Shown: positions 643-20,145 of the stretch, in pieces
Numbering within the stretch: position 1 is the first letter of the stretch
How the letters are laid out: every line of letters starts with the position of its first letter
Virus record (IMG/VR): IMGVR_UViG_3300025087_000274
Location: 1-26,784 of that record
Strand: one strand, 5' to 3'
From: a virus
DNA: 26,784 nt
Made by a program: the position numbers and the translations under genes
The notes under the pieces: generated by a model
What the model was told of the DNA's origin: nothing
The model's input: the letters and a program-made list of their open reading frames with translations, nothing else
Database searches by the model: none

Positions 643-1137
643 ATGAAACATTATTTAGTTAGTTGTGAGGATTCAGAAGAAGCCATTGACCGAGTCCTAG
701 AGATGGATGATTATGGTTTTGAAATCGTTGAAGTTCCAGATGACTTTTACAATCTACACTTCTCTGACAAGAATGATTCTTTGGAAACCATTACCTTACC
801 GAAAATGAAGAACCTTTTTGATCTTGGCTACGGAATTGAAATCGTAATTGATGACAGCGAACATGAAACGTATGCCAAAGTTCTGGATACGGGGTGGACT
901 GTTGTTCTTTGTAATGGATTGAAGTTTTCTGTTTGTGGCATTGATACAGATAAGGAATATTCCGATGTTTATGAAATTGAAATTTCTGGAAAAGATTTTT
1001 TAAGTGAGAATCTTTCTCTGAACACAGATGAAGAAACAGATTTGACACAGAATTTCATATTTTCAGAAGGATTGATTGGAAAAGGCGTTCCTTACGATTT
1101 CAAGATTATCAGAGTAATTTCACCCTTGACAAAATAA
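643..1137 (+). CDS. Unknown acidic protein (164 aa)
   Basis: ATG start 3 nt after the preceding stop; only a weak SD is visible (GGGAAGA), so coupling to the upstream gene is likely. The 164-aa product is acidic and appears mixed alpha/beta, with no signal peptide, no transmembrane helix and no obvious catalytic motif. Its last codons overlap the -35 box of the promoter at 1126, so this gene ends a transcription unit and the next promoter starts inside it. Family not recognised. Confidence 0.75.
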   Translation: MKHYLVSCEDSEEAIDRVLEMDDYGFEIVEVPDDFYNLHFSDKNDSLETITLPKMKNLFDLGYGIEIVIDDSEHETYAKVLDTGWTVVLCNGLKFSVCGIDTDKEYSDVYEIEISGKDFLSENLSLNTDEETDLTQNFIFSEGLIGKGVPYDFKIIRVISPLTK

Positions 1138-1154
1138 GTCTTTTATGGTACAAT
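1126..1154 (+). promoter_or_regulatory. Strong sigma70-type promoter P1
   Basis: Consensus -35 TTGACA (1126-1131), 17-bp spacer, then extended -10 TGGTACAAT with TACAAT at 1149-1154. The spacer ends TTTTATGG, as in the promoters at 7784 and 11312. It sits at the 3' end of the 164-aa gene and directs transcription into the structured leader at 1155-1384. Confidence 0.85.
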
Positions 1155-1384
1155 GATTTTGGAGATTGAGATAACTTCAATATCTTTTTAGGAAAAACTA
1201 ACCCTAGCTACAGTTGTGGTAACGGTCTTGAATCGACAAGATATGGCTTATGGTCGGAGGGTTAGTCTGGTGATCAGATATATTTATACTTTATTTGTTT
1301 GAATTATCATCTGTTCACCAATGCTAGATGTGACGGAAGGTTACGTATTCTAGTCTATCGTAACACAATTTGAAAGGAGTAAAT
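1155..1384 (+). ncRNA. Structured non-coding leader or small RNA
   Basis: About 220 nt without a plausible reading frame lie between promoter P1 and the next gene. Three hairpins can be drawn. H1 pairs 1197-1205 with 1258-1266 (9 bp, ACTAACCCT/AGGGTTAGT) and encloses a smaller hairpin, TCTTG/CAAGA at 1226-1241. H2 pairs 1268-1279 with 1309-1320 (11 bp with one T-T mismatch). H3 pairs CTAGA (1324) with TCTAG (1349-1353) and stacks on GTGAC/GTTAC with a GGAAG loop; an alternative H3 pairs GTTACG with CGTAAC (1340-1364). No U-tract terminator follows, so it may be a 5' leader controlling the gene at 1385 rather than a separate RNA. It does not match a tRNA or any riboswitch core that I can recognise. 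Confidence 0.5.
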
Positions 1385-2398: not shown

Positions 2399-2427
2399 TT
2401 GACAGGATTTTGAAAGTGTGATAGAAT
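2399..2427 (+). promoter_or_regulatory. Strong sigma70-type promoter P2 (tRNA/hsp20 unit)
   Basis: CCC followed by -35 TTGACA (2399-2404), 17-bp spacer and extended -10 TGATAGAAT (TAGAAT 2422-2427). It lies between the tRNA-Leu and the next tRNA, so it likely drives that tRNA, the Hsp20-like gene and downstream tRNAs. Confidence 0.8.
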
Positions 2428-7783: not shown

Positions 7784-7812
7784 TTGACAAAACCAAGATT
7801 TTATGATAGAAT
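7784..7812 (+). promoter_or_regulatory. Strong sigma70-type promoter P3
   Basis: CCC followed by TTGACA (7784-7789), 17-bp spacer ending TTTTATGA, and TAGAAT (7807-7812) with TGn in front. It begins just after the exonuclease stop and drives the tandem small paralogues and DNA polymerase. Confidence 0.87.
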
Positions 7813-7848
7813 CCTAGTTGATTGATATACAAGTCATTTGACTAGGAT
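7811..7848 (+). promoter_or_regulatory. Inverted repeat over the P3 start site
   Basis: ATCCTAGT (7811-7818) and ACTAGGAT (7841-7848) are perfect 8-bp inverted copies 22 bp apart. The left copy overlaps the end of the -10 box, so a transcript from P3 would contain only the right copy, while read-through RNA would contain both. A T-rich run (ATTTTATTTT) follows, so a weak terminator-like fold of read-through RNA is possible. Confidence 0.5.
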
Positions 7849-7870
7849 TTTATTTTCACTTGGAGGAAAT

Positions 7871-8062
7871 ATGTATAACACGTTGGACGATGCGCTGAAG
7901 TTTGCCGAGAGCGAATCTAAATTTACCGGAGAATATGTTTACGTTTCATATAATCGAAGCGGCGATTGGTTTTTTGTAAGTGAAGGATACTATCCCGATG
8001 AAGAAACTGGGGGATGGGATTTGAATCCAGTTGCAATCTTTAATTCGGGAAAAGAAGTTTAA
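7871..8062 (+). CDS. Small paralogue family protein A (63 aa)
   Basis: The ATG at 7871 has SD GGAGG (7862-7866) 4 nt upstream; upstream in-frame triplets lie in the leader. The 63-aa product starts MYNTLDDALKFAE, has a YVYVSYNRSGDWFFV beta hairpin and a conserved GGWDLNPVAIFNSG ending. The next gene encodes a close relative with the same layout, so the pair arose by tandem duplication. The predicted fold is one helix followed by a small beta sheet. No function is known to me; small beta proteins expressed just before polymerase might modulate replication or host functions. Confidence 0.75.
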   Translation: MYNTLDDALKFAESESKFTGEYVYVSYNRSGDWFFVSEGYYPDEETGGWDLNPVAIFNSGKEV

Positions 8063-8075
8063 CTAGGAGTCTAAA

Positions 8076-8276
8076 ATGTACTCTACATACGAACAAGCAA
8101 TGAACGAAGCTATTAAAACATCAAAATCATTGAAAGATCGTCGGATATATGTAAATTATAATTTAAACAGTGGGTATTATACCGTTACCGTCGAGTATTA
8201 TGAAGAAAATCTAAACGAGGGATGGGATAATGAGCCGTATGCTGTGTTTGTAAACGGAGTTGATATTGATGCCTAA
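8076..8276 (+). CDS. Small paralogue family protein B (66 aa)
   Basis: ATG with SD AGGAG 8 nt upstream, 13 nt after its paralogue. The 66-aa product starts MYSTYEQAMNEAI and carries a YVNYNLNSGYYTVTVEYY sheet and an EGWDNEPYAVFVNG ending, matching copy A position for position (MYxT start, YVxYN, GWDxxPxAxFxxG). The last 8 nt overlap the polymerase gene, and its 3' end holds the polymerase SD (GGAG), so translation is coupled. Function unknown. Confidence 0.75.
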   Translation: MYSTYEQAMNEAIKTSKSLKDRRIYVNYNLNSGYYTVTVEYYEENLNEGWDNEPYAVFVNGVDIDA

Positions 8277-10848
8277 GTACGTTTATGACATTGAAGTATT
8301 CCCCAACTTCTTTTGTGCAACATTTGAAAGTGTTGATACCAAAGAAGTTCGATCTTTTGTTTTGTTTGATGGAACTGATGAAACGCCAGCAATGAAACAG
8401 TTTCTATCACAAGAAGATTTAATTCTAATTGGATACAATAACCTAGAATATGACGGTGCTGTTTTAGCAGCCATGTTCAATACCGAAGTAAACATTCCAG
8501 AAGAAATATTCGATCTATCATCTTCTCTCATCTCAGATTCTTCCAGATTTGACGGAAGAATTAGAAAGATTAGAACGGCCAAACGATCTTGGAAAGATGT
8601 TGATCTGATGAAGATCATGGCTTTTGATGGCCTTACTGGTTTGAAACAGGTTGGTATTAATCTGAATTGGTATAAAATTCAAGACTTACCTTTGAATTAC
8701 GACGCCACAGTAAAAGAATCAGATGTAAAAACAATTTTGTCATACAACTTAAACGATGTTCAGATAACTAGAAAATTGTTTGATAGAATTCAAGATAAGA
8801 TAAAACTGAGAAAAGATGTTGGAGAATTGTTTGGTGTAGACCTTTCTTCCGCAAGCGATAGTAAAATGGGAAATCTTATTCTGGAAAAGCTATACGTTGA
8901 AGAATCGGGTATAGAATTATCTAAGCTCAAGGGTCTTAGAACAACCCACTCTCGTTTACTGGTTGGATATTGTCTTGGAAGCGGAATCGAATTCAAAACA
9001 AATCGCCTGAAGAGAGTTAAGCGAGAGGTAGAAAATACTTTGGTTCGGCAGGAAAAGAATTTCGGATATACCAAAGTGTTTGAATTTGGTGGAACTTCAT
9101 ACAAAATGGGTTCTGGTGGATTGCACAGCGATGATGATCCTAGAAAGTTTGTATCCGATTCAGAATACATAATTAGAGATTGCGACGCGAGTTCATACTA
9201 TCCTAGCATGATGATTAAGAACAACATTCGACCAGCACATCTCGGAGAAGATTTTACAAAGATTCTGACTAAACTTACACAAGAACGTATTGATGCCAAA
9301 AAATCTGGAAATAAAGTAAAAGCTGAAGGATTAAAAATTACTATTAACTCAATTTTTGGTAAGCTAAACAGCAGCACATTTTGGCTAGAAGATGCTCAGG
9401 CACTTTTAGGTGTAACTGTTTCGGGTCAATTGTATCTTTTGATGTTGATAGAATCGCTGGTATTGGCGGGTATTCGAGTTATCTCAGCTAATACGGACGG
9501 TATTGTTTCTAAGATTCCCCGCAATCTGGAAAGTAGCTATTTTGAAGTTTGTAAAGAATGGGAACAATCAACCGGATTTTCTCTCGAATATACTGATTAT
9601 GATTTATATGTTCGATCTGACGTTAACAATTATGTTACCAAAAAACCAGATGGGAAAACAAAAGAGAAGGGTCGATATTTGCGAGAAGTAGAACTCAATA
9701 AAGGTTATATCCATCCGATTGTTCCAAAGTGTATGTACGAATATTTTATCAACGAAAAACCCGTAGAAGAAACTTTGAGATCATCCCATGATATTTTCGA
9801 CTTTTGTATTTCTCAGAAAACTGGTTCTGACTTTCAACTAGAATACCATAAAGAAGATGGATCGGTAATTAACTTACAAAAGAATAATCGTTTTTATGTG
9901 TCTGTAGGTGGAGGAACGCTCATCAAGCGGCATAAGGTTCGAGGTAATGAAATTGGTCTTATGGTTGGTAATAAAGTTAGAATTTTGAATGACTATGATG
10001 ATCGAGTTCCTTTTGAAAACTACGACATAAACTACGAATATTATCTATCTGACGTATTAAAATACATTGAAAAGATAAAAGATGACGATTACGAATTCAT
10101 TCCGTTTGTAGACGATGAATTTCTCGAAATGCCAAAATCAGAAGCAGAAGAACAGGACGCTACAGACAGAGAAGAACTTCTAAACAAGTTGGATGGTATA
10201 AAAAACCTAAGCAATCAGGTTGTCGGCAATCTGATTCGCCTGCAAAGAGAGTTTGAGGGTACTGACTTTTTGGAAATGTTAATTTACGCCGAAGATAATG
10301 GTCTAGTTTCATCTAAGTTTGAAGACCTTATTCTGGTGAATTATTTTTCAAAGTATGGAAAAAATAAACGTTTACTGACAATCTTTGAGGAATTTCGCAA
10401 AGGCAAGAATAAATATACTGCCAAGTTAACTCAGAAATCAAAGGATAAGCGTATGGAAGAACTGCGTAAGTTATACAGCGAACTCCCAAACGAATCCCTC
10501 CCCATTGGACATCAGATCGGAGCCAATGTGGTTATCTTAGGAAGAGTCGCTTCTACTTTCAAACTCAATCCGAAGTATGTTTATGTCAATAAAATTGAAA
10601 TCAAATATTCTCCAAAGATTGAAATTTACTGTTTGGCTAAAGGAACTACAGCAACGTTGAAAATTAGAAAGAACCTCTTTGAAAACAATCCTATCAACCC
10701 AGGAGATATTGTTTTGTGTAAATATTTTGAAAAGAAAAACTCTGTTCGTAAAACCGAATCTGGTTGGGAAGATATTCCTGACAAGTTTGATATCTGGTTA
10801 ACTGGATATGAGATTGTCAATCCCCAAACGTTGAAAGAGGAAGAATGA
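8269..10848 (+). CDS. Family B DNA polymerase with 3'-5' exonuclease
   Basis: The ATG at 8269 (MPKYVYDIE) has GGAG 9 nt upstream; the in-frame TTG at 8260 is too close to that SD. The 859-aa protein has an N-terminal exonuclease with Exo I D7-I-E9, Exo II around N57/N58-D62 and Exo III Y159-x3-D163. Polymerase motifs follow: A, DxxSxYPS with D306; B, KxxxNSxFG with K356, N360 and G364; and C, ANTDG with D410. Motif C usually reads DTDS; here the first Asp is Asn408. The C-terminal 400 residues (acidic linker, then a KLTQKSKDKR-like region and beta-rich end) are unusually long. It is the replicative polymerase, expressed with RNase HI. Confidence 0.9.
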   Translation: MPKYVYDIEVFPNFFCATFESVDTKEVRSFVLFDGTDETPAMKQFLSQEDLILIGYNNLEYDGAVLAAMFNTEVNIPEEIFDLSSSLISDSSRFDGRIRKIRTAKRSWKDVDLMKIMAFDGLTGLKQVGINLNWYKIQDLPLNYDATVKESDVKTILSYNLNDVQITRKLFDRIQDKIKLRKDVGELFGVDLSSASDSKMGNLILEKLYVEESGIELSKLKGLRTTHSRLLVGYCLGSGIEFKTNRLKRVKREVENTLVRQEKNFGYTKVFEFGGTSYKMGSGGLHSDDDPRKFVSDSEYIIRDCDASSYYPSMMIKNNIRPAHLGEDFTKILTKLTQERIDAKKSGNKVKAEGLKITINSIFGKLNSSTFWLEDAQALLGVTVSGQLYLLMLIESLVLAGIRVISANTDGIVSKIPRNLESSYFEVCKEWEQSTGFSLEYTDYDLYVRSDVNNYVTKKPDGKTKEKGRYLREVELNKGYIHPIVPKCMYEYFINEKPVEETLRSSHDIFDFCISQKTGSDFQLEYHKEDGSVINLQKNNRFYVSVGGGTLIKRHKVRGNEIGLMVGNKVRILNDYDDRVPFENYDINYEYYLSDVLKYIEKIKDDDYEFIPFVDDEFLEMPKSEAEEQDATDREELLNKLDGIKNLSNQVVGNLIRLQREFEGTDFLEMLIYAEDNGLVSSKFEDLILVNYFSKYGKNKRLLTIFEEFRKGKNKYTAKLTQKSKDKRMEELRKLYSELPNESLPIGHQIGANVVILGRVASTFKLNPKYVYVNKIEIKYSPKIEIYCLAKGTTATLKIRKNLFENNPINPGDIVLCKYFEKKNSVRKTESGWEDIPDKFDIWLTGYEIVNPQTLKEEE

Positions 10849-11315
10849 AATCAAAACAAAAACCAGTTTTAATTTACTGTGATGGTTGCTGTAAAGGCAA
10901 CCAAAACGAAGAAAACGTTGGAGCTTGGGCTTATCATATAGAATATTTCGGATACATCGTAGAAGATTCTGGAATAGCAGAAAACACAACTAATAACGTC
11001 ATGGAACTACTTTCTTGTTTAAAAGCACTTCAAAGAATCAACAACCCAAAAGGTTTCAGCTTTACTGTTTATTCAGACTCCCAATATCTAGTAAAAGGAA
11101 TAAACGAATGGTCTAAAAATTGGATTAAAAACAACTGGATCAATGCTCAGAAAAAGAAAGTAGAAAATAAAAACTTGTGGATGGAGTTATTACGTGAAAT
11201 CAAACGGTTTGAGAACATTGAATTTATTCAAGTTAAAGGCCACTCTAATAATGCTGGCAACGATAGGGTGGATGATCTTTGTAATATTGCTGTAAAGGAA
11301 CGTTTTGGGGGTTGA
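10845..11315 (+). CDS. rnhA: Ribonuclease HI
   Basis: The ATGA overlap with the polymerase stop shows translational coupling. The 156-aa product has the four carboxylates of the type 1 RNase H active site: D13 in YCDGCCKG, E54 in NNVMEL, D78 in YSDSQYL and D143 in DRVDDLCN, plus H133 in VKGHS. It hydrolyses the RNA strand of RNA-DNA hybrids, so it probably removes primers made by the phage primase. The basic loop WSKNWIKNNW is the handle region of the E. coli type. Its last codons hold the -35 box of promoter P4. Confidence 0.93.
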   Translation: MKSKQKPVLIYCDGCCKGNQNEENVGAWAYHIEYFGYIVEDSGIAENTTNNVMELLSCLKALQRINNPKGFSFTVYSDSQYLVKGINEWSKNWIKNNWINAQKKKVENKNLWMELLREIKRFENIEFIQVKGHSNNAGNDRVDDLCNIAVKERFGG

Positions 11316-11340
11316 CAAAATATCACTTTTATGATATACT
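11312..11340 (+). promoter_or_regulatory. Strong sigma70-type promoter P4
   Basis: TTGACA (11312-11317), 17-bp spacer ending TTTTATGA, and TATACT (11335-11340) with TGn in front. It overlaps the RNase HI stop codon. An ATG at 11331 lies inside the -10 region and so cannot be the start on a P4 transcript. Confidence 0.85.
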
Positions 11341-11359
11341 CTTTCTATCAACTAGAAAG
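11341..11359 (+). promoter_or_regulatory. Inverted repeat over P4 start site and Shine-Dalgarno
   Basis: CTTTCTA (11341-11347) and TAGAAAG (11353-11359) are perfect 7-bp inverted copies with a 5-nt loop. The right arm is the beginning of the SD AAAGGAG; extending the stem with CTC against GAG would bury it all. The left arm sits between the -10 box and the expected start site. Confidence 0.55.
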
Positions 11360-11369
11360 GAGAGAGAAA

Positions 11370-11588
11370 ATAAAGATACAATATTGTTGTGATTTTGAAG
11401 GGGCTGAAGGAACCTGCGATGTTTGTGGGACTAGGGTGATCTTAGAAGACGGCGATAAAGTTTTACCAATTACTTGGACGCGCAATAAACGCGATGAGAA
11501 TTTCGAAATTACCGAGGAAACGATTAGGATTTGGAAAGTGACTTGTCCAGGATGTAAAAATGATCTGGAATGCGAAAAGGAAATTTAA
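11370..11588 (+). CDS. Zinc-ribbon-like small protein, probable ATA start
   Basis: A strong SD (AGAAAGGAG, 11354-11362) is followed after 7 nt by ATA at 11370; no ATG, GTG or TTG lies in frame nearby on the P4 transcript. A start at the ATG 11331 is unlikely because it falls in the -10 box. From ATA the product is 72 aa. It contains CDVCG (near residue 19) and CPGC (near 63), two CxxC knuckles that would form a zinc ribbon. Proteins of this kind often bind nucleic acid or protein partners. The stop overlaps the next ATG by 1 nt. The ATA start is odd and might reflect a base error. Confidence 0.65.
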   Translation: MKIQYCCDFEGAEGTCDVCGTRVILEDGDKVLPITWTRNKRDENFEITEETIRIWKVTCPGCKNDLECEKEI

Positions 11589-12685
11589 TGAATAAAATTT
11601 TTATTCCAAAAAAGATTAGAATTGGCTACCAGGAACGAAAAGATACTTATACCGGAAAACTGGCTTATGTAATCTACTATGACGAAAAGGGTAAAATTCG
11701 AAAAGAACCCAGTTGGAACAACTGGCGAAATGATAGCATTGAGGCTGATGAATATGAGAATCTGCCAACAGAAGGATTCGTTCTAAACAAAAAGGTGGGT
11801 GATTACTCTGGTGATTGGGGGAATCATCGTCAAGCCTATTCAAGAGTTTATGACCCAAGAGGGTTTGAATTTGAAATTACAATCGAGAACCTTTTATATA
11901 TTCTTGAAAATACAAGTTCTATTAAAGGCAAGGGATTAGAGGGCGAATTTGTATATGGTTGGGATGGTGGCGATTTACTTCTAATTCCAACATCTTCGCC
12001 AGATTATGTTAGACTGACTGAGTATTCTGATAAGAGAAATAATCCTGATAAAATCAACAAGAAAAATATCGTCTTAGGTGCTACCTATAAAAACAAGAAT
12101 GATGAGAATTTGATTTATTTGGGATATTTTGATTACTATGATTACTATTCTTGGCGAGAAGACAAGAAGATTGTAAAACGTTTTTGCTTCGCAAAGTTTG
12201 AAAATGGCAAAGTTACCGAGTGGAAACACTATTCTTCTTTATCCTCAATGATTGAATTTGTTGATAGCAAACCTCATTCCGAATATCCCGAAATCATGGA
12301 AGCCCTAGAACATCAAACCTTTTATTCTCCTCTCGATCCGAGCAAGTATGAATATGAGGTTTTAACAGCAGAAGAATTGATCAAGCACAATGGGGATTAT
12401 TATAATTACTGGAACAACAAACTTCAGGCCATTGTTGCATTAGACGGAACTTTGTATGATTGTGAAATCGAAGTCAACACAAGGGATTACAGCTCCAAGA
12501 CTCTTAGAGAATTTACCAGTTGCAAAATGTATCCCGTAGAAAATTATTATGGAGTAAGTAATCGACTGCCCAGCCAATATACAAGCGGTTGGACAACCAG
12601 TTGGACAACACTAGGTGATTTGATGTCCAAATATAAATTTGTTCGTGTAACCAAAAAATACTTAGCAAACGGAAAATCGGCATAA
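11588..12685 (+). CDS. Conserved phage protein of unknown function (365 aa)
   Basis: ATG at 11588 with AAAAGGAAA upstream, overlapping the previous stop by 1 nt. The 365-aa product opens with KKIRIGYQERKDTYTGKLAY and contains segments such as YDPRGFEFEITIENLLYILE, GLEGEFVYGWDGGDLLLIP and ATYKNKNDENLIYLGYFDYY. From memory similar sequences occur in many large phages without an assigned function. It is rich in Tyr, Trp and charged residues and is predicted beta-rich, with no catalytic motif I can name. A tandem SGWTTSWTTL repeat near the C-terminus is also visible in the DNA. Cytosolic, no membrane segment. Confidence 0.8.
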   Translation: MNKIFIPKKIRIGYQERKDTYTGKLAYVIYYDEKGKIRKEPSWNNWRNDSIEADEYENLPTEGFVLNKKVGDYSGDWGNHRQAYSRVYDPRGFEFEITIENLLYILENTSSIKGKGLEGEFVYGWDGGDLLLIPTSSPDYVRLTEYSDKRNNPDKINKKNIVLGATYKNKNDENLIYLGYFDYYDYYSWREDKKIVKRFCFAKFENGKVTEWKHYSSLSSMIEFVDSKPHSEYPEIMEALEHQTFYSPLDPSKYEYEVLTAEELIKHNGDYYNYWNNKLQAIVALDGTLYDCEIEVNTRDYSSKTLREFTSCKMYPVENYYGVSNRLPSQYTSGWTTSWTTLGDLMSKYKFVRVTKKYLANGKSA

Positions 12686-12699
12686 TAAAGGAAAATAAA

Positions 12700-13116
12700 A
12701 TGTCTGAAAAAATTTCAAATGATGATGTAATTTTACAGTTGAAGTCTAAGATTGACGAAAAGAAAGCTCTATTGAAGGCGACTGAACGCTTCACGCCTGT
12801 AACAAATTGCTCGCTGGAATTGGATGGACAACGCTATAACTTAAACGTTATTTCAAAAGAACAGATTGTTTATCTTATGGTAAAGTTAAATTCTTTACTG
12901 ATGTCTGCTGCAAAGTTAAACCTACAGAACGAATTTCAAATTTCTGGTTTCTCTTTGGCTGACTGGATGCAGGATTTGACTTCTCGGATGGCGATTGTTA
13001 ACCGAAAAGCAGAGCAAGATAAGCTGCGCCTACTGGAAGAAAAGTTAGAATCTCGCTTATCCAGCGATAAGAAAATCGAACTAGAACTTGCAGAAATCTC
13101 TAAATTACTGCAATAA
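12700..13116 (+). CDS. Unknown helical protein with coiled coil (138 aa)
   Basis: ATG with SD AAAGGA about 7 nt upstream. The 138-aa product begins with a coiled-coil-like helix (residues 8-28, ILQLKSKIDEKKALLKATE), a small beta segment (LELDGQRYNLNVIS), and then long helices ending in a heptad-rich region (about 95-138: EQDKLRLLEEKLESRL). No cysteine motif, signal peptide or membrane segment. It resembles an oligomeric scaffold or adaptor by composition only. Family not recognised. Confidence 0.75.
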   Translation: MSEKISNDDVILQLKSKIDEKKALLKATERFTPVTNCSLELDGQRYNLNVISKEQIVYLMVKLNSLLMSAAKLNLQNEFQISGFSLADWMQDLTSRMAIVNRKAEQDKLRLLEEKLESRLSSDKKIELELAEISKLLQ

Positions 13117-13127
13117 AAGGAGTAAAA

Positions 13128-13298
13128 ATGACAAATTCACCCGATAAAATGAGGCTTTTAGCAAAGCTGTCACAATTGCTTTTGGACTATGAAAACGCTC
13201 ATCCAGAAGATAGCGTTGAACTTCAGATTTACTTTCATGAAGATAATGTCGGAAAGTATGTTTGGAACCACGAAACCCTTTTCAACAGATTTGAATAA
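13128..13298 (+). CDS. Short unknown protein (56 aa)
   Basis: A 56-codon frame with ATG at 13128 and SD AAAGGAG 7 nt upstream, closing with TAA at 13296-13298. It lies 11 nt after the preceding gene and 15 nt before the next, on the same strand and without other coding in the gap, so it is a genuine operon member. The product has an amphipathic helix (MRLLAKLSQLLLDYENA) followed by a polar HEDNVGKYVWNHETLF tail. Function unknown. Confidence 0.7.
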   Translation: MTNSPDKMRLLAKLSQLLLDYENAHPEDSVELQIYFHEDNVGKYVWNHETLFNRFE

Positions 13299-13313
13299 TC
13301 AAAGAAAGGTTTT

Positions 13314-13700
13314 ATGACTTCAATAAAAATTGATACACTTAGACGAAAATATAATTCGGAATGTCTTCTGGAAGTAAAAGCGGCTCTAGTTAGAAATAAC
13401 CATCCTGAAAAAGAAGACTATTCCAAAAAAATAGATAACATCTTGTCTCGATCTAAAAACAGGGAAATGAACATTAGGGCAATTATGGAAGCAAAAGAAA
13501 TTGTTGAAGAAGTAAAAGACTATTTGAAAACTGATGAAGTATTAAATTTAGAATCGATTGTTTCTAAGTTGCCAATTCTGCTCTTTAGTTCAAACGAGAA
13601 CATTGTCTATTTCTATTGGGTAGATGAATATGGCGCAGTTATGTACCAATATGGAATGCAGACTGCACCGATTAGTATTTTGAAAAGGCTTGTAAAATGA
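13314..13700 (+). CDS. Unknown protein (128 aa)
   Basis: ATG with AAAGG 5 nt upstream. The 128-aa product is helical for the first 80 residues, with many Lys and Glu residues and a KSKNREMN segment. It ends in a beta-rich part, IVYFYWVDEYGAVMYQYGMQTAPISILKRL. The final ATGA overlaps the next gene start, showing coupling. No family recognised; no membrane segment or zinc motif. Confidence 0.7.
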   Translation: MTSIKIDTLRRKYNSECLLEVKAALVRNNHPEKEDYSKKIDNILSRSKNREMNIRAIMEAKEIVEEVKDYLKTDEVLNLESIVSKLPILLFSSNENIVYFYWVDEYGAVMYQYGMQTAPISILKRLVK

Positions 13701-13885
13701 AAATCAAAGTATTCTGTTCTTTTGATTTTGATGTAGAAGTTACAGACCTTTTAGAAGTCAATAAAGTTATAAACCTAGCAGAAAATAGTTTTACTGGATT
13801 GACCTTTTATGACGATGATGGCAACGAGTATAACACTAAAAATCTTTCTGTGCAATGGGATTGGGAGAATGGGGCTTTATCGTAA
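13697..13885 (+). CDS. Small acidic beta protein (62 aa)
   Basis: ATG overlaps the previous stop by 4 nt (ATGA), indicating coupled translation. The 62-aa product has alternating hydrophobic strands (KIKVFCSFDFDVEV), a helix (VNKVINLAENS), and an acidic DDDGNEYNTKNLSVQWDWE end. Function unknown. It closes this transcription block before the 90-nt gap at 13886. Confidence 0.7.
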   Translation: MKIKVFCSFDFDVEVTDLLEVNKVINLAENSFTGLTFYDDDGNEYNTKNLSVQWDWENGALS

Positions 13886-13916
13886 AATAACGATGGCTTT
13901 GCAATTAATCTTGCAT

Positions 13917-13945
13917 TTGCAATAACTATTGCAGAATTGGACAAT
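13917..13945 (+). promoter_or_regulatory. Possible promoter with internal palindrome before the broken SSB gene
   Basis: TTGCAA (13917-13922), 17-bp spacer, then GACAAT (13940-13945) is a weaker sigma70 match ahead of the SSB copy 2 start. A 16-bp palindrome, TGCAATA-AC-TATTGCA (13918-13933), lies within the -35/spacer, and further TTGCAA/TTGCAT copies occur just upstream (13909-13920). It could be an operator overlapping the promoter. Confidence 0.35.
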
Positions 13946-13975
13946 AAAAACAATTAATTTTGTAAGGAGAAAATA

Positions 13976-14346
13976 ATGGCTATCAAATTCAAAGATCAGT
14001 ACGCACCTTCTGGTCTATCTTTGAGCAGAAAGAAAATTGCCTGGTTGTAAAGTTATCAACCAGCGAATTGAATCAGGATGGTGAACGGGAATACAGCGAC
14101 TGGTTCGCAACGGTGTTCGGCGCTGCTAACATCACTAAGTTTATGAGTTATCAGGAAAGAGACTTTTTATCCATCTCTGGAAAGATGAAACGCAATAAGT
14201 ATAAGAAACAAGATGGTACAAACGGTTGGCGGCAGGAGTTGATCGTCTACGGGGTAGAAAAGCATATTCCCAAGCAGAAGGAAATTCAACCAGAAGTTTC
14301 AAACGTTCAGCCTCCTGATAATACTGTGTGGGATATTCCCTTCTAA
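13976..14346 (+). pseudogene. SSB paralogue (copy 2), apparently frameshifted
   Basis: An ATG at 13976 with SD AAGGAG starts MAIKFKDQ and stops early at 14048-14050. The -1 frame then reads on with SVRTFWSIFEQKENCLVVKL and continues without a stop to 14346. It shares the VVKL core, spacing and Asp-Trp-Phe region with the SSB at 4536 and ends WDIPF, the acidic SSB-type tip. Joining D-Q to V-R-T needs one extra base near 13999, so a 1-nt deletion or sequencing error is the simplest reading. An intact product would be about 123 aa. The frame from a TTG at 14068 would lack the first OB-fold strands and has no SD. Confidence 0.7.
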
Positions 14347-14376
14347 AAAGTGGGATAAATGTGGGATAACTATCCC

Positions 14377-14405
14377 TTGACAATTTCTCCTTTCTGTGGT
14401 ATTAT
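14377..14405 (+). promoter_or_regulatory. Strong sigma70-type promoter P5
   Basis: CCC followed by TTGACA (14377-14382), 17-bp spacer and extended -10 TGGTATTAT (TATTAT 14400-14405). A palindrome GGGATA-AC-TATCCC (14363-14376) abuts the -35, and a direct repeat GTGGGATAA lies just before it (14350-14369). Confidence 0.82.
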
Positions 14406-14422
14406 TATTGCAGAAAGGAGAA
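14385..14422 (+). promoter_or_regulatory. 12-bp inverted repeat bracketing the P5 -10 box
   Basis: TTCTCCTTTCTG (14385-14396) and CAGAAAGGAGAA (14411-14422) are exact inverse complements with the -10 box between them. The right arm holds an SD-like AAAGGAG, the left arm its complement. An RNA started at P5 (about 14411-14413) lacks the left arm, while read-through RNA could pair both arms. Confidence 0.7.
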
Positions 14423-14447
14423 TTTATTTAACATGGAGGAATCGGCA

Positions 14448-17802: not shown

Positions 17803-18603
17803 GTGTTTGTAGAAAAGAAACCAATTTCTGATGTTGCAATGAATATCCTAAAGAAGCGTTATTTTTCTCCAGGGGAAACCACCTGGAATGACGTTACGAA
17901 TAGAGTAATAGATTATGTTCTTGAGGAAAACACCGAAGATAAAGAACTTACCAGGGAAATGATGCTCAACAGATATTTCATTCCCAATTCACCTTGCCTA
18001 GTAAATTCCGGTAGAAAAAATGGAGGTCTTTTAGCTTGCTTTGTTGTTGGCTTTGAAGATACCATTCAAGAAATTTATAAAACCAAGTTGGATTTTGCAC
18101 TAATTGCTAAGAAGGGTGGCGGTTGCGGAACTACCCTATCTCACATTAGGCCAGAAAATTCTCAAGTGGAAGGTTCGGCTCACGGATACGCCGGTGGGCC
18201 TATCAAATTTTTCGATACAATTTGTCACGATATGAAAGCCATGACCCAATCTGGTTTTCGAGAAATGGCAATGATGGGAACAATGTCTGTCTATCATCCA
18301 GACATCATTAAATTCATAACAGCAAAAGAAGAAGAAGGAAAGATGACAACCACAAATATCTCGGTTGTTGTAGATGATGAGTTTATGAGAAAGGTTGTAA
18401 ACAAGGAAACATATAAAACTTACTTTGATTTTGAATCTGGAAGAGTTTATTATGATGAGTATAATGCAGATGATATTTTTAATATGATTATTGAAGGCGC
18501 TTGGAAAAACGGAGAACCTGGCCTGATTTTTTTTGATAGCATAAACAACAATACCCCATACCGTTATGCTGGTGTAAAAATTGAAGCAAGCAATCCATGC
18601 GGT
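17803..18603 (+). CDS. nrdJ: Class II ribonucleotide reductase NrdJ, exon 1
   Basis: GTG start with AAGGAGG 5 nt upstream. Exon 1 encodes residues 1-267 of a spliced 561-aa adenosylcobalamin-dependent (class II) reductase, which makes deoxyribonucleotides. Seen here: an N-terminal region typical for NrdJ, Cys in LLACFVVGFED (near 73), KKGGGCGTTLSHIRP (near 103-117) and the catalytic NPCG (264-267). The Cys of NPC is the radical-transfer cysteine. The reading frame without splicing runs on into the intron and stops at 18619-18621, giving a truncated 272-aa protein. Joining 18603 to 18831 restores NPCGEQPLPP. Confidence 0.9.
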
Positions 18604-18830
18604 AAAAGTTTGCCGCATTAAAATCGGGTAATATCGGTGAAAATCCCTAGAGGATAACGCCGACATAAACTGTCCAATTTCGCAAGGTGGGCAGTCATGC
18701 TAGAGCATAGAGGGTGAATAAATATAATCCCTCCAAGAGTATCCGAAAGGCGAAAGCCTTAAAACATATGCCGAACTTTATGGCGACATAAAGAATTGAG
18801 AGATAAAAAACTCTCAAGATAACAAAATTG
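18604..18830 (+). ncRNA. Group I intron in nrdJ (no endonuclease gene)
   Basis: The 227-nt insert fits a compact group I intron. P1 pairs exon TGCGGT with internal guide GCCGCA (18612-18617), giving a U-G at the 5' splice site after 18603. The 3' splice site follows a terminal G at 18830. P10 can pair GTTT (18608-18611) with exon-2 GAAC. A core follows with CGGTG/CGCCG around ATCC/GGAT, CTGTCC/GGGCAG, GAGGG/CCCTC and a GNRA-capped AAGGC/GCCTT (18747-18760). A CTTTATG/CATAAAG hairpin with a GCGA loop (18776-18793) and TTGAGAG/CTCTCAA (18796-18817) complete it. No reading frame for a homing endonuclease fits. Splicing rejoins NPCG and EQPLPP in frame. Confidence 0.85.
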
Positions 18831-19715
18831 GAACAACCTCTACCGCCGAATGGTTCCTGCAACTTAGGTTCAATTGATATTTCAAAATTTTTAGACGATG
18901 AAAATAAGTTTCAATGGAAACTGTTTGAAAAATCTGTAAGGTTAGGAGTTAGATTTTTAGATGCAGTAATTGATAAAAACGTATTTCCAACTCTGGGCAT
19001 TGAGGAAGTGTCCAAGAAATCTCGTCAAATTGGTCTTGGTATCATGGGTCTTGCAGACTACTATCTTCGAAAGCAAATATCTTATGGCTCAGATCGAGCT
19101 TTAGCGAAACTAGAACAAGTTTTAGAATTCATGTATGAAATCGCAGAAGATGAATCCATAAAGATGGGGCAAGAGTTTGGGGTTCCCGAATGGTGCAATA
19201 ATCTTCCAGTCCCAAGAAGAAACATTACTCTGCTTTCGATTGCTCCTACGGGAACCATCAGCCTGATCGCCGGATGCAACAGCGGAATTGAACCCGTATT
19301 TAGTGAGATCACGGTTCGCAATGATAAAACCGGAAGCTATCAATTCGAAAATGACTTGGCCTCCAAAGAATATTTTAGATGTGCCGTTTCCGCCAATGGA
19401 GCAAGGGAAGTTTCCTGGGAAGAGCATGTAAAAACTCAGGCTTCATCTCAAAAATTTGTTGATTCTGGCGTTTCCAAAACGATCAATTTCCCAAACCACA
19501 CTCAAAGAGAAACAGTAAAGAAAGCATTTATTAAAGCCTGGGAAATGGGTTGCAGGGGAATTACTGCTTACAGAAACGGCTCTCGCAAAGTAGAAGTTCT
19601 AAGCCCAAAAAACGTTAGAAAAGATAAGTGTCCACAGTGTGGCGAACAGATATTGAAATTTGAAAATGTTAAAAAGTGTTCAAAGTGCGATTGGTCTATG
19701 ACCATTGAGGAATAA
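18831..19715 (+). CDS. nrdJ: Class II ribonucleotide reductase NrdJ, exon 2
   Basis: The frame resumes at GAA with EQPLPPNGSCNLGSIDIS, so the conserved catalytic NPCxE motif is restored with Glu268. It includes GLGIMGLADYYL, IAPTGTISLIAGCNSGIEPVF and GCRGITAYRNGSRKVEVLS, normal late motifs of NrdJ. The C-terminus is a zinc ribbon CPQCG-CSKCDWS, as in B12-dependent reductases. This spliced gene makes dNTP precursors without a separate radical protein, so it is useful to a phage. It continues into the MazG-like gene, 2 nt downstream. Confidence 0.9.
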   Translation, partial: EQPLPPNGSCNLGSIDISKFLDDENKFQWKLFEKSVRLGVRFLDAVIDKNVFPTLGIEEVSKKSRQIGLGIMGLADYYLRKQISYGSDRALAKLEQVLEFMYEIAEDESIKMGQEFGVPEWCNNLPVPRRNITLLSIAPTGTISLIAGCNSGIEPVFSEITVRNDKTGSYQFENDLASKEYFRCAVSANGAREVSWEEHVKTQASSQKFVDSGVSKTINFPNHTQRETVKKAFIKAWEMGCRGITAYRNGSRKVEVLSPKNVRKDKCPQCGEQILKFENVKKCSKCDWSMTIEE

Positions 19716-20083: not shown

Positions 20084-20096
20084 TTCAAAACAGTAT

Positions 20097-20134
20097 AAAT
20101 AACGGTTGTACCTAAATTGGTACAACCGTTATTT
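20097..20134. terminator. Bidirectional terminator between convergent units
   Basis: A 16-bp perfect stem, AAATAACGGTTGTACC (20097-20112) and its inverse complement (20119-20134), with a 6-nt loop TAAATT. T-rich sequence follows on the plus side and A/T-rich sequence (read as T on the minus strand) precedes it. It separates the plus-strand nucleotide genes from the minus-strand tail genes. Confidence 0.9.
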
Positions 20135-20145
20135 TATATTAAATT

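Follow-up and report, generated by a model that had tools for sequence, protein, structure and literature searches.

Why three promoters of a phage-like genome should each lie inside an inverted repeat, with a left arm at or before the transcription start and a right arm beyond it, is the question raised by IMG/VR viral record IMGVR_UViG_3300025087_000274, analysed here as the whole stretch of 26,784 nt (the window). The genes of the window include a phage B-type-related DNA polymerase, a primase-helicase, RNase H, ribonucleotide reductase and MazG, and the minus-strand genes, by inference, look structural. No close relative emerged from scans with the DNA polymerase, helicase and IMPDH-like protein, for which the best identity was 43%, and there was no megablast match. 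The ribonucleotide reductase is encoded in two parts (17803-18621 and 18828-19715, plus strand) that match the same Pfam family and are separated by about 210 bases between NPCG and EQPLP; an Rfam search of this gap gave no match, and a small intron is possible. The plus strand carries five promoter-like sites, P1 to P5, each with an exact TTGACA, a 17-base spacer, a TG and a near-consensus -10 (TTGACA-N17-TGNTANNNT). With 11 of 12 consensus matches plus the TG at every site, all five have the strong sigma70-like character of the phage promoter-terminator motifs (PeSLs) discussed below. Their start sites are predictions, placed about 7 bases past the -10.

1126-1154, plus strand: P1 promoter, TTGACA-N17-TACAAT, no notable hairpin over its start (longest-stem test)
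2399-2427, plus strand: P2 promoter, TTGACA-N17-TAGAAT, within a tRNA cluster, likewise no notable hairpin over its start
7784-7812, plus strand: P3 promoter, TTGACA-N17-TAGAAT and a TG; start predicted near 7819
11312-11340, plus strand: P4 promoter, TTGACA-N17-TATACT and a TG; start predicted near 11347
14377-14405, plus strand: P5 promoter, TTGACA-N17-TATTAT and a TG; start predicted near 14412

Downstream of P1 lie some 220 non-coding bases (1161-1384, plus strand) that are predicted to fold into a multi-branched structure (z -2.5); they open with a small hairpin and a U-run and matched no Rfam family. Phage replication and metabolism genes surround P3 to P5. The original prediction placed inverted repeats at 7811/7841, 11341/11353 and 14385/14411, with AAAG(GAG) in the right arm at P4 and P5. 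All were found at these positions, and this observation is partly confirmed: the repeats are real, but their strength is unequal. The hairpins and the adjoining Shine-Dalgarno (SD) elements are as follows.

7805-7854, plus strand: P3 hairpin, arms 7805-7821 and 7838-7854, -23.1 kcal/mol, z -6.0, terminator-like
7862-7866, plus strand: SD GGAGG serving ATG 7871; not part of the P3 stem, yet harder to open in read-through RNA
11339-11366, plus strand: weak P4 hairpin, 8 bp + 2, covering part of the SD, without a U-run
11356-11362, plus strand: SD-like AAAGGAG, with the in-frame ATA 11370 following after 7 nt
14385-14422, plus strand: P5 hairpin, 17 bp with G-U pairs, -22.9 kcal/mol, z -6.4, followed by UUUAUUU
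14414-14420, plus strand: SD AAAGGAG, 12 nt before ATG 14433, predicted to be hidden in read-through RNA
14435-14439, plus strand: alternative SD GGAGG, 9 nt before ATG 14449, outside the hairpin and not hidden

At P3 the left arm begins just 5' of the -10 and reaches about as far as the start, and the right arm lies within, and is then trailed by, a U-rich stretch. The longest Watson-Crick stem over the predicted start is 9 bp (p=0.006 against shuffled downstream sequence), and counting G-U pairs the stem comprises 17+4 bp. The two small ORFs that come after P3 (7871-8062 and 8076-8276, plus strand) resemble each other as paralogues. At P5 the left arm sits in the spacer between the -35 and the -10, the right arm holds AAAGGAG, and the tip of the hairpin is the -10 itself, with four of its bases in the loop and two paired; its longest Watson-Crick stem, 12 bp, was reached in 0 of 2000 shuffles. 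Upstream of P5, a short ORF at 13976-14346 (plus strand; MAIKFKDQYAPSG...) hits a stop and another frame carries on as an ORF with the SSB-like tail DNTVWDIPF; the break may be a frameshift or a contig error. An intergenic, short and degenerate tandem repeat of period 18 with TTGCA palindromes lies at 13886-13933.

The promoter thus sits within a hairpin clearly at P3 and P5 and weakly at P4, given the predicted starts. The P4 left arm is placed between the -10 and the start, the whole stretch folds with -11.8 kcal/mol (z -2.6), and its longest Watson-Crick stem of 7 bp (p=0.24) is at chance level by length. That stem length speaks for chance or base composition as the origin of the repeats, a reading that is refuted for P3 and P5, where the shuffle tests contradict it, but not for P4; the masking ranks of all three sites and the recurrence in other phages, both given below, also weigh against it, and as an account of the three repeats together it is hardly credible. 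No ATG follows the P4 SD. The only in-frame candidate is the ATA at 11370, from which the Zn-ribbon-like ORF would begin (M)KIQYCCD; this ATA may be a rare start codon or a contig error. The same contig encodes a tRNA-Ile with anticodon UAU at 2443-2540. No phage homologues were found for the proteins encoded after P4 and P5, so homology does not settle their starts.

The original prediction further held that longer, read-through RNA could fold and hide the SD, while RNA from the local promoter would be translatable, and proposed folding the two. SD opening costs were calculated for RNA begun locally and for RNA carrying 60 upstream bases, with p values against shuffled upstream sequence. The SD was costlier to open in the read-through form at all three sites: the cost rose from 2.6 to 6.5 kcal/mol at P3 (p=0.034), from 0.6 to 7.1 kcal/mol at P4 (p=0.008) and from 0.2 to 13.7 kcal/mol at P5 (p=0.002). 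The P5 values are those for start 14433, and masking there holds only for that start because ATG 14449 has its own SD outside the hairpin. By read-through opening cost the three SDs take ranks 1-3 of 26 starts in the window, the highest value among the 23 others being 5.5 kcal/mol, and the local costs were stable whichever start was chosen. The predicted starts leave the left arm mostly or wholly untranscribed. In silico, the hidden and open states are supported at P3, P4 and P5; the P3 SD itself, however, lies outside the stem. As a positive control, T4 gene e rose from 4.0 to 14.3 kcal/mol, and RB49 modB gave a further case (1.7 to 10.0 kcal/mol, p=0.017). T4 soc, the second positive control, was not detected, so the method is an incomplete predictor.

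In T4 gene e and I-TevI, a late promoter lies inside a hairpin that sequesters the ribosome-binding site (RBS) (PMC3014915, PMC2988022). The anatomy of the window is like that of gene e, with a promoter in a hairpin, a read-through SD that is predicted to be hidden and a local RNA without the left arm, and the computed opening energies are similar. This likeness favours a timing switch of the kind originally suggested, in which local and upstream promoters would act at different times and the downstream genes would stay silent until the local promoter fires. Gene e, however, depends on phage late promoters for its temporal effect, whereas P3 to P5 share the sigma70-like elements of P1 and P2 upstream; all five promoters are near-consensus, P3 to P5 showed no sign of another promoter class, and two of the hairpins are terminator-like. 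An early/late switch is therefore not indicated, and we regard it as very unlikely.

P5 was the strongest terminator-like match in a scan of the window. U-rich runs lie 3' of the stems at P3 (UUUUAUUUU-like) and P5 (UUUAUUU), and both stems resemble a terminator of the window's own, used here as a yardstick.

20092-20140, no single strand: bidirectional terminator between convergent gene blocks, AT-rich stem, imperfect U-run

By sequence and fold, P3 and P5 therefore look like terminating stem-loops; P4, where a U-run is absent, does not. These resemblances suggest a pure overlap of promoter and terminator, in which P3 and P5 would stop transcription coming from upstream and the following unit would begin inside the terminator, with the SD overlap at P5 incidental and P4 noise. 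Such composites have been described in T4-like phages as PeSLs (Comeau et al. 2014, as cited in PMC4503421), and the window is like them in joining a strong sigma70-like promoter to a stem-loop. In RB49, hairpins enclose the -10 at several promoters, some with a U-run, and at modB the hairpin also holds the SD with a U-run after it. In contrast to P4 and P5 of the window, most of the RB49 stems seen leave the SD outside, modB being an exception, and no T4-like core genes were noted among the window genes examined. PeSLs reportedly form cassettes in variable regions of T4-like genomes and mediate gene shuffling. The missing U-run at P4 speaks against a pure overlap, as do findings in the other phages described below; we consider it rather unlikely.

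Viral contigs were scanned with a pattern that combines TTGACA, a CTCCTTT within the spacer and a downstream AAAGGAG. The pattern was found in 62 stretches of the viral collection, compared with 18 when the left arm was reversed, 3 when the -35 was scrambled and 22 when the arms were swapped; the swapped-arm matches were nearly all hairpins without a -10 and almost never lay at promoters. Some of the 62 are the same locus repeated, and 21 are distinct among those passing a stricter filter. A -10 was present in 44 of the 62, an ATG lay 5-13 nt after the SD in 42 of these 44, and the right arm in those stretches begins at -1 to +7 relative to the predicted start. Matches in the genome collection were sorted by pattern features alone, with prophage and host origin pooled. 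At the same loci, promoters without the motif had 5 sites with at least 6 bp where 1.6 were expected. A broader test covered 0.95 Mb in 19 records with 80 gene-leading promoters, overlapping copies having been removed by sequence: stems of at least 10 bp occurred at 15 of these promoters against 1.3 expected, and 7 of these, as we read the list, are not motif matches. Prevalence in this set is biased because each of the 19 records was chosen for at least one motif match; the extra sites were unselected. One 205-kb viral record, G002 (L283, L281), has at least five promoters with arms of 12-16 bp that hold the SD, some of which reach or touch the start codon.

Stems of at least 9 bp were found at 33 promoters, and in 27 of these the SD lies inside the right arm, which argues against termination as the whole function. 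The SD is closer to the start at hairpin promoters (5 versus 11 nt), and their SD-ATG spacers are richer in U (0.54 versus 0.30, p=2e-5). The U-rich spacers, which also speak for a pure promoter-terminator overlap, suggest that one element serves both as terminator and as RBS mask. Hairpin promoters lay downstream of co-directional genes in 26 of 31 cases and other promoters in 51 of 72, a difference that was not significant (p=0.22), and co-directional placement was dropped as proof of insulation. Among marine Synechococcus and Prochlorococcus phages, those with similar mazG or halogenase genes gave matches that stop short of the promoter, mazG in the named phages adjoins the upstream gene without a gap, and no named homologue of the mazG and halogenase sites was obtained.

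The dyads overlie the -10 or the spacer, as palindromic operators bound by a repressor or an activator might. The original prediction had thought a common DNA-binding operator less likely, and this judgement stands, because the arm sequences differ between P3, P4 and P5, which share no recognition sequence, and because imperfect pairs across phages are G-U rather than A-C. At the 33 hairpin promoters, flanked mismatches comprised 9 G-U and 0 A-C pairs, and first mismatches 24 G-U against 6 A-C, a count to which the promoter's conserved TG may contribute. Across phages the arm tracks the SD, and swapped-arm repeats, as noted, are almost never at promoters. We judge operators to be extremely improbable.

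Further evidence for RNA pairing came from a phosphoesterase-like gene behind one motif match, whose homologues were gathered by protein and not by motif. Their arms are CTCCTTTCCA/TGGAAAGGAG, CTCCTTTCCGT/ACGGAAAGGAG, CCCCTTTCCAT/ATGGAAAGGGG, GCCTTTCT/AGAAAGGC and CTGCCTTC/GAAGGCAG. Across the alignment of nine sequences, 97% of cells are paired and 8 cells are double-changed; the covariation score was equalled in 0 of 500 shuffles, and slid structures score lower. Many homologues are without the promoter altogether and one, L357, has a broken version. Judged from the alignment, support for this family keeping its hairpin through compensatory changes is good but not overwhelming, because the sequences are few and related. 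The family retains the pairing without a U-run, so that masking, and not termination, would be the simpler reading there, a further point against a pure promoter-terminator overlap.

A comparable arrangement is known from a mobile element. In Tn10/IS10, an inverted repeat at one end of the transposase-encoding element reportedly straddles the promoter start, so that RNA started outside hides the RBS. The repeats of the window likewise straddle the promoter start such that outside-started RNA is predicted to mask the RBS. However, the Tn10/IS10 element shields one gene, whereas the window has several phage operons with different arms at each, and no transposase was found among its gene families. 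Tn10 is reported to protect itself against promoters outside the element (Davis et al. 1985, as cited in PMC2965389). In the literature covered, which was largely open-access, reports bearing on such a promoter class came only from T4, PeSLs and insertion sequences. P3 to P5 share parts of T4 gene e, PeSLs and Tn10, and as a variant of these they join a sigma70-type promoter and arms that differ at each site with putative termination and predicted masking.

We propose that P3, P4 and P5 are probably insulated promoters inside inverted repeats. Insulation by termination together with RBS masking is more probable than an early/late switch because P3 and P5 are terminator-like, the P3 SD lies outside the stem and P1 to P5 are all of sigma70 type; with this preference, the original interpretation is partly supported. 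At each site the left arm would be promoter DNA and the right arm leader. RNA started upstream would carry both arms and fold, and the folded read-through RNA would either stop at the U-run, as at P3 and P5, or have its SD masked, as at P4, P5 and, more weakly, P3. RNA started locally would lack the left arm, have little structure and be translatable. The downstream gene would in this way be tied to its own promoter, although the upstream gene ends directly at that promoter or at most about 31 bases away. The repeats, their strength, the computed masking and the recurrence with compensatory change in other phages are observations; from them we infer the start sites, termination, the effect on translation and the purpose.

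We put at even odds a broader reading, in which phage sigma70 promoters with the complement of the downstream SD in their -35/-10 spacer form a widespread class. In such a class the same stretch of about 45 bases would serve as terminator, promoter and RBS, translation would need a local start, and the arrangement would have arisen repeatedly in unrelated phages. To our knowledge, promoters with the SD complement in the spacer have not been described as a class. If this proposal is true, one short element would end or silence incoming RNA and start translatable RNA, and packed phage operons would stay independent without spacer DNA. It would supply a testable rule, that translation requires a local start, and a compact design for insulated promoters. 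Read-through RNA would then not imply protein, and the reading of phage RNA-seq would be affected accordingly.
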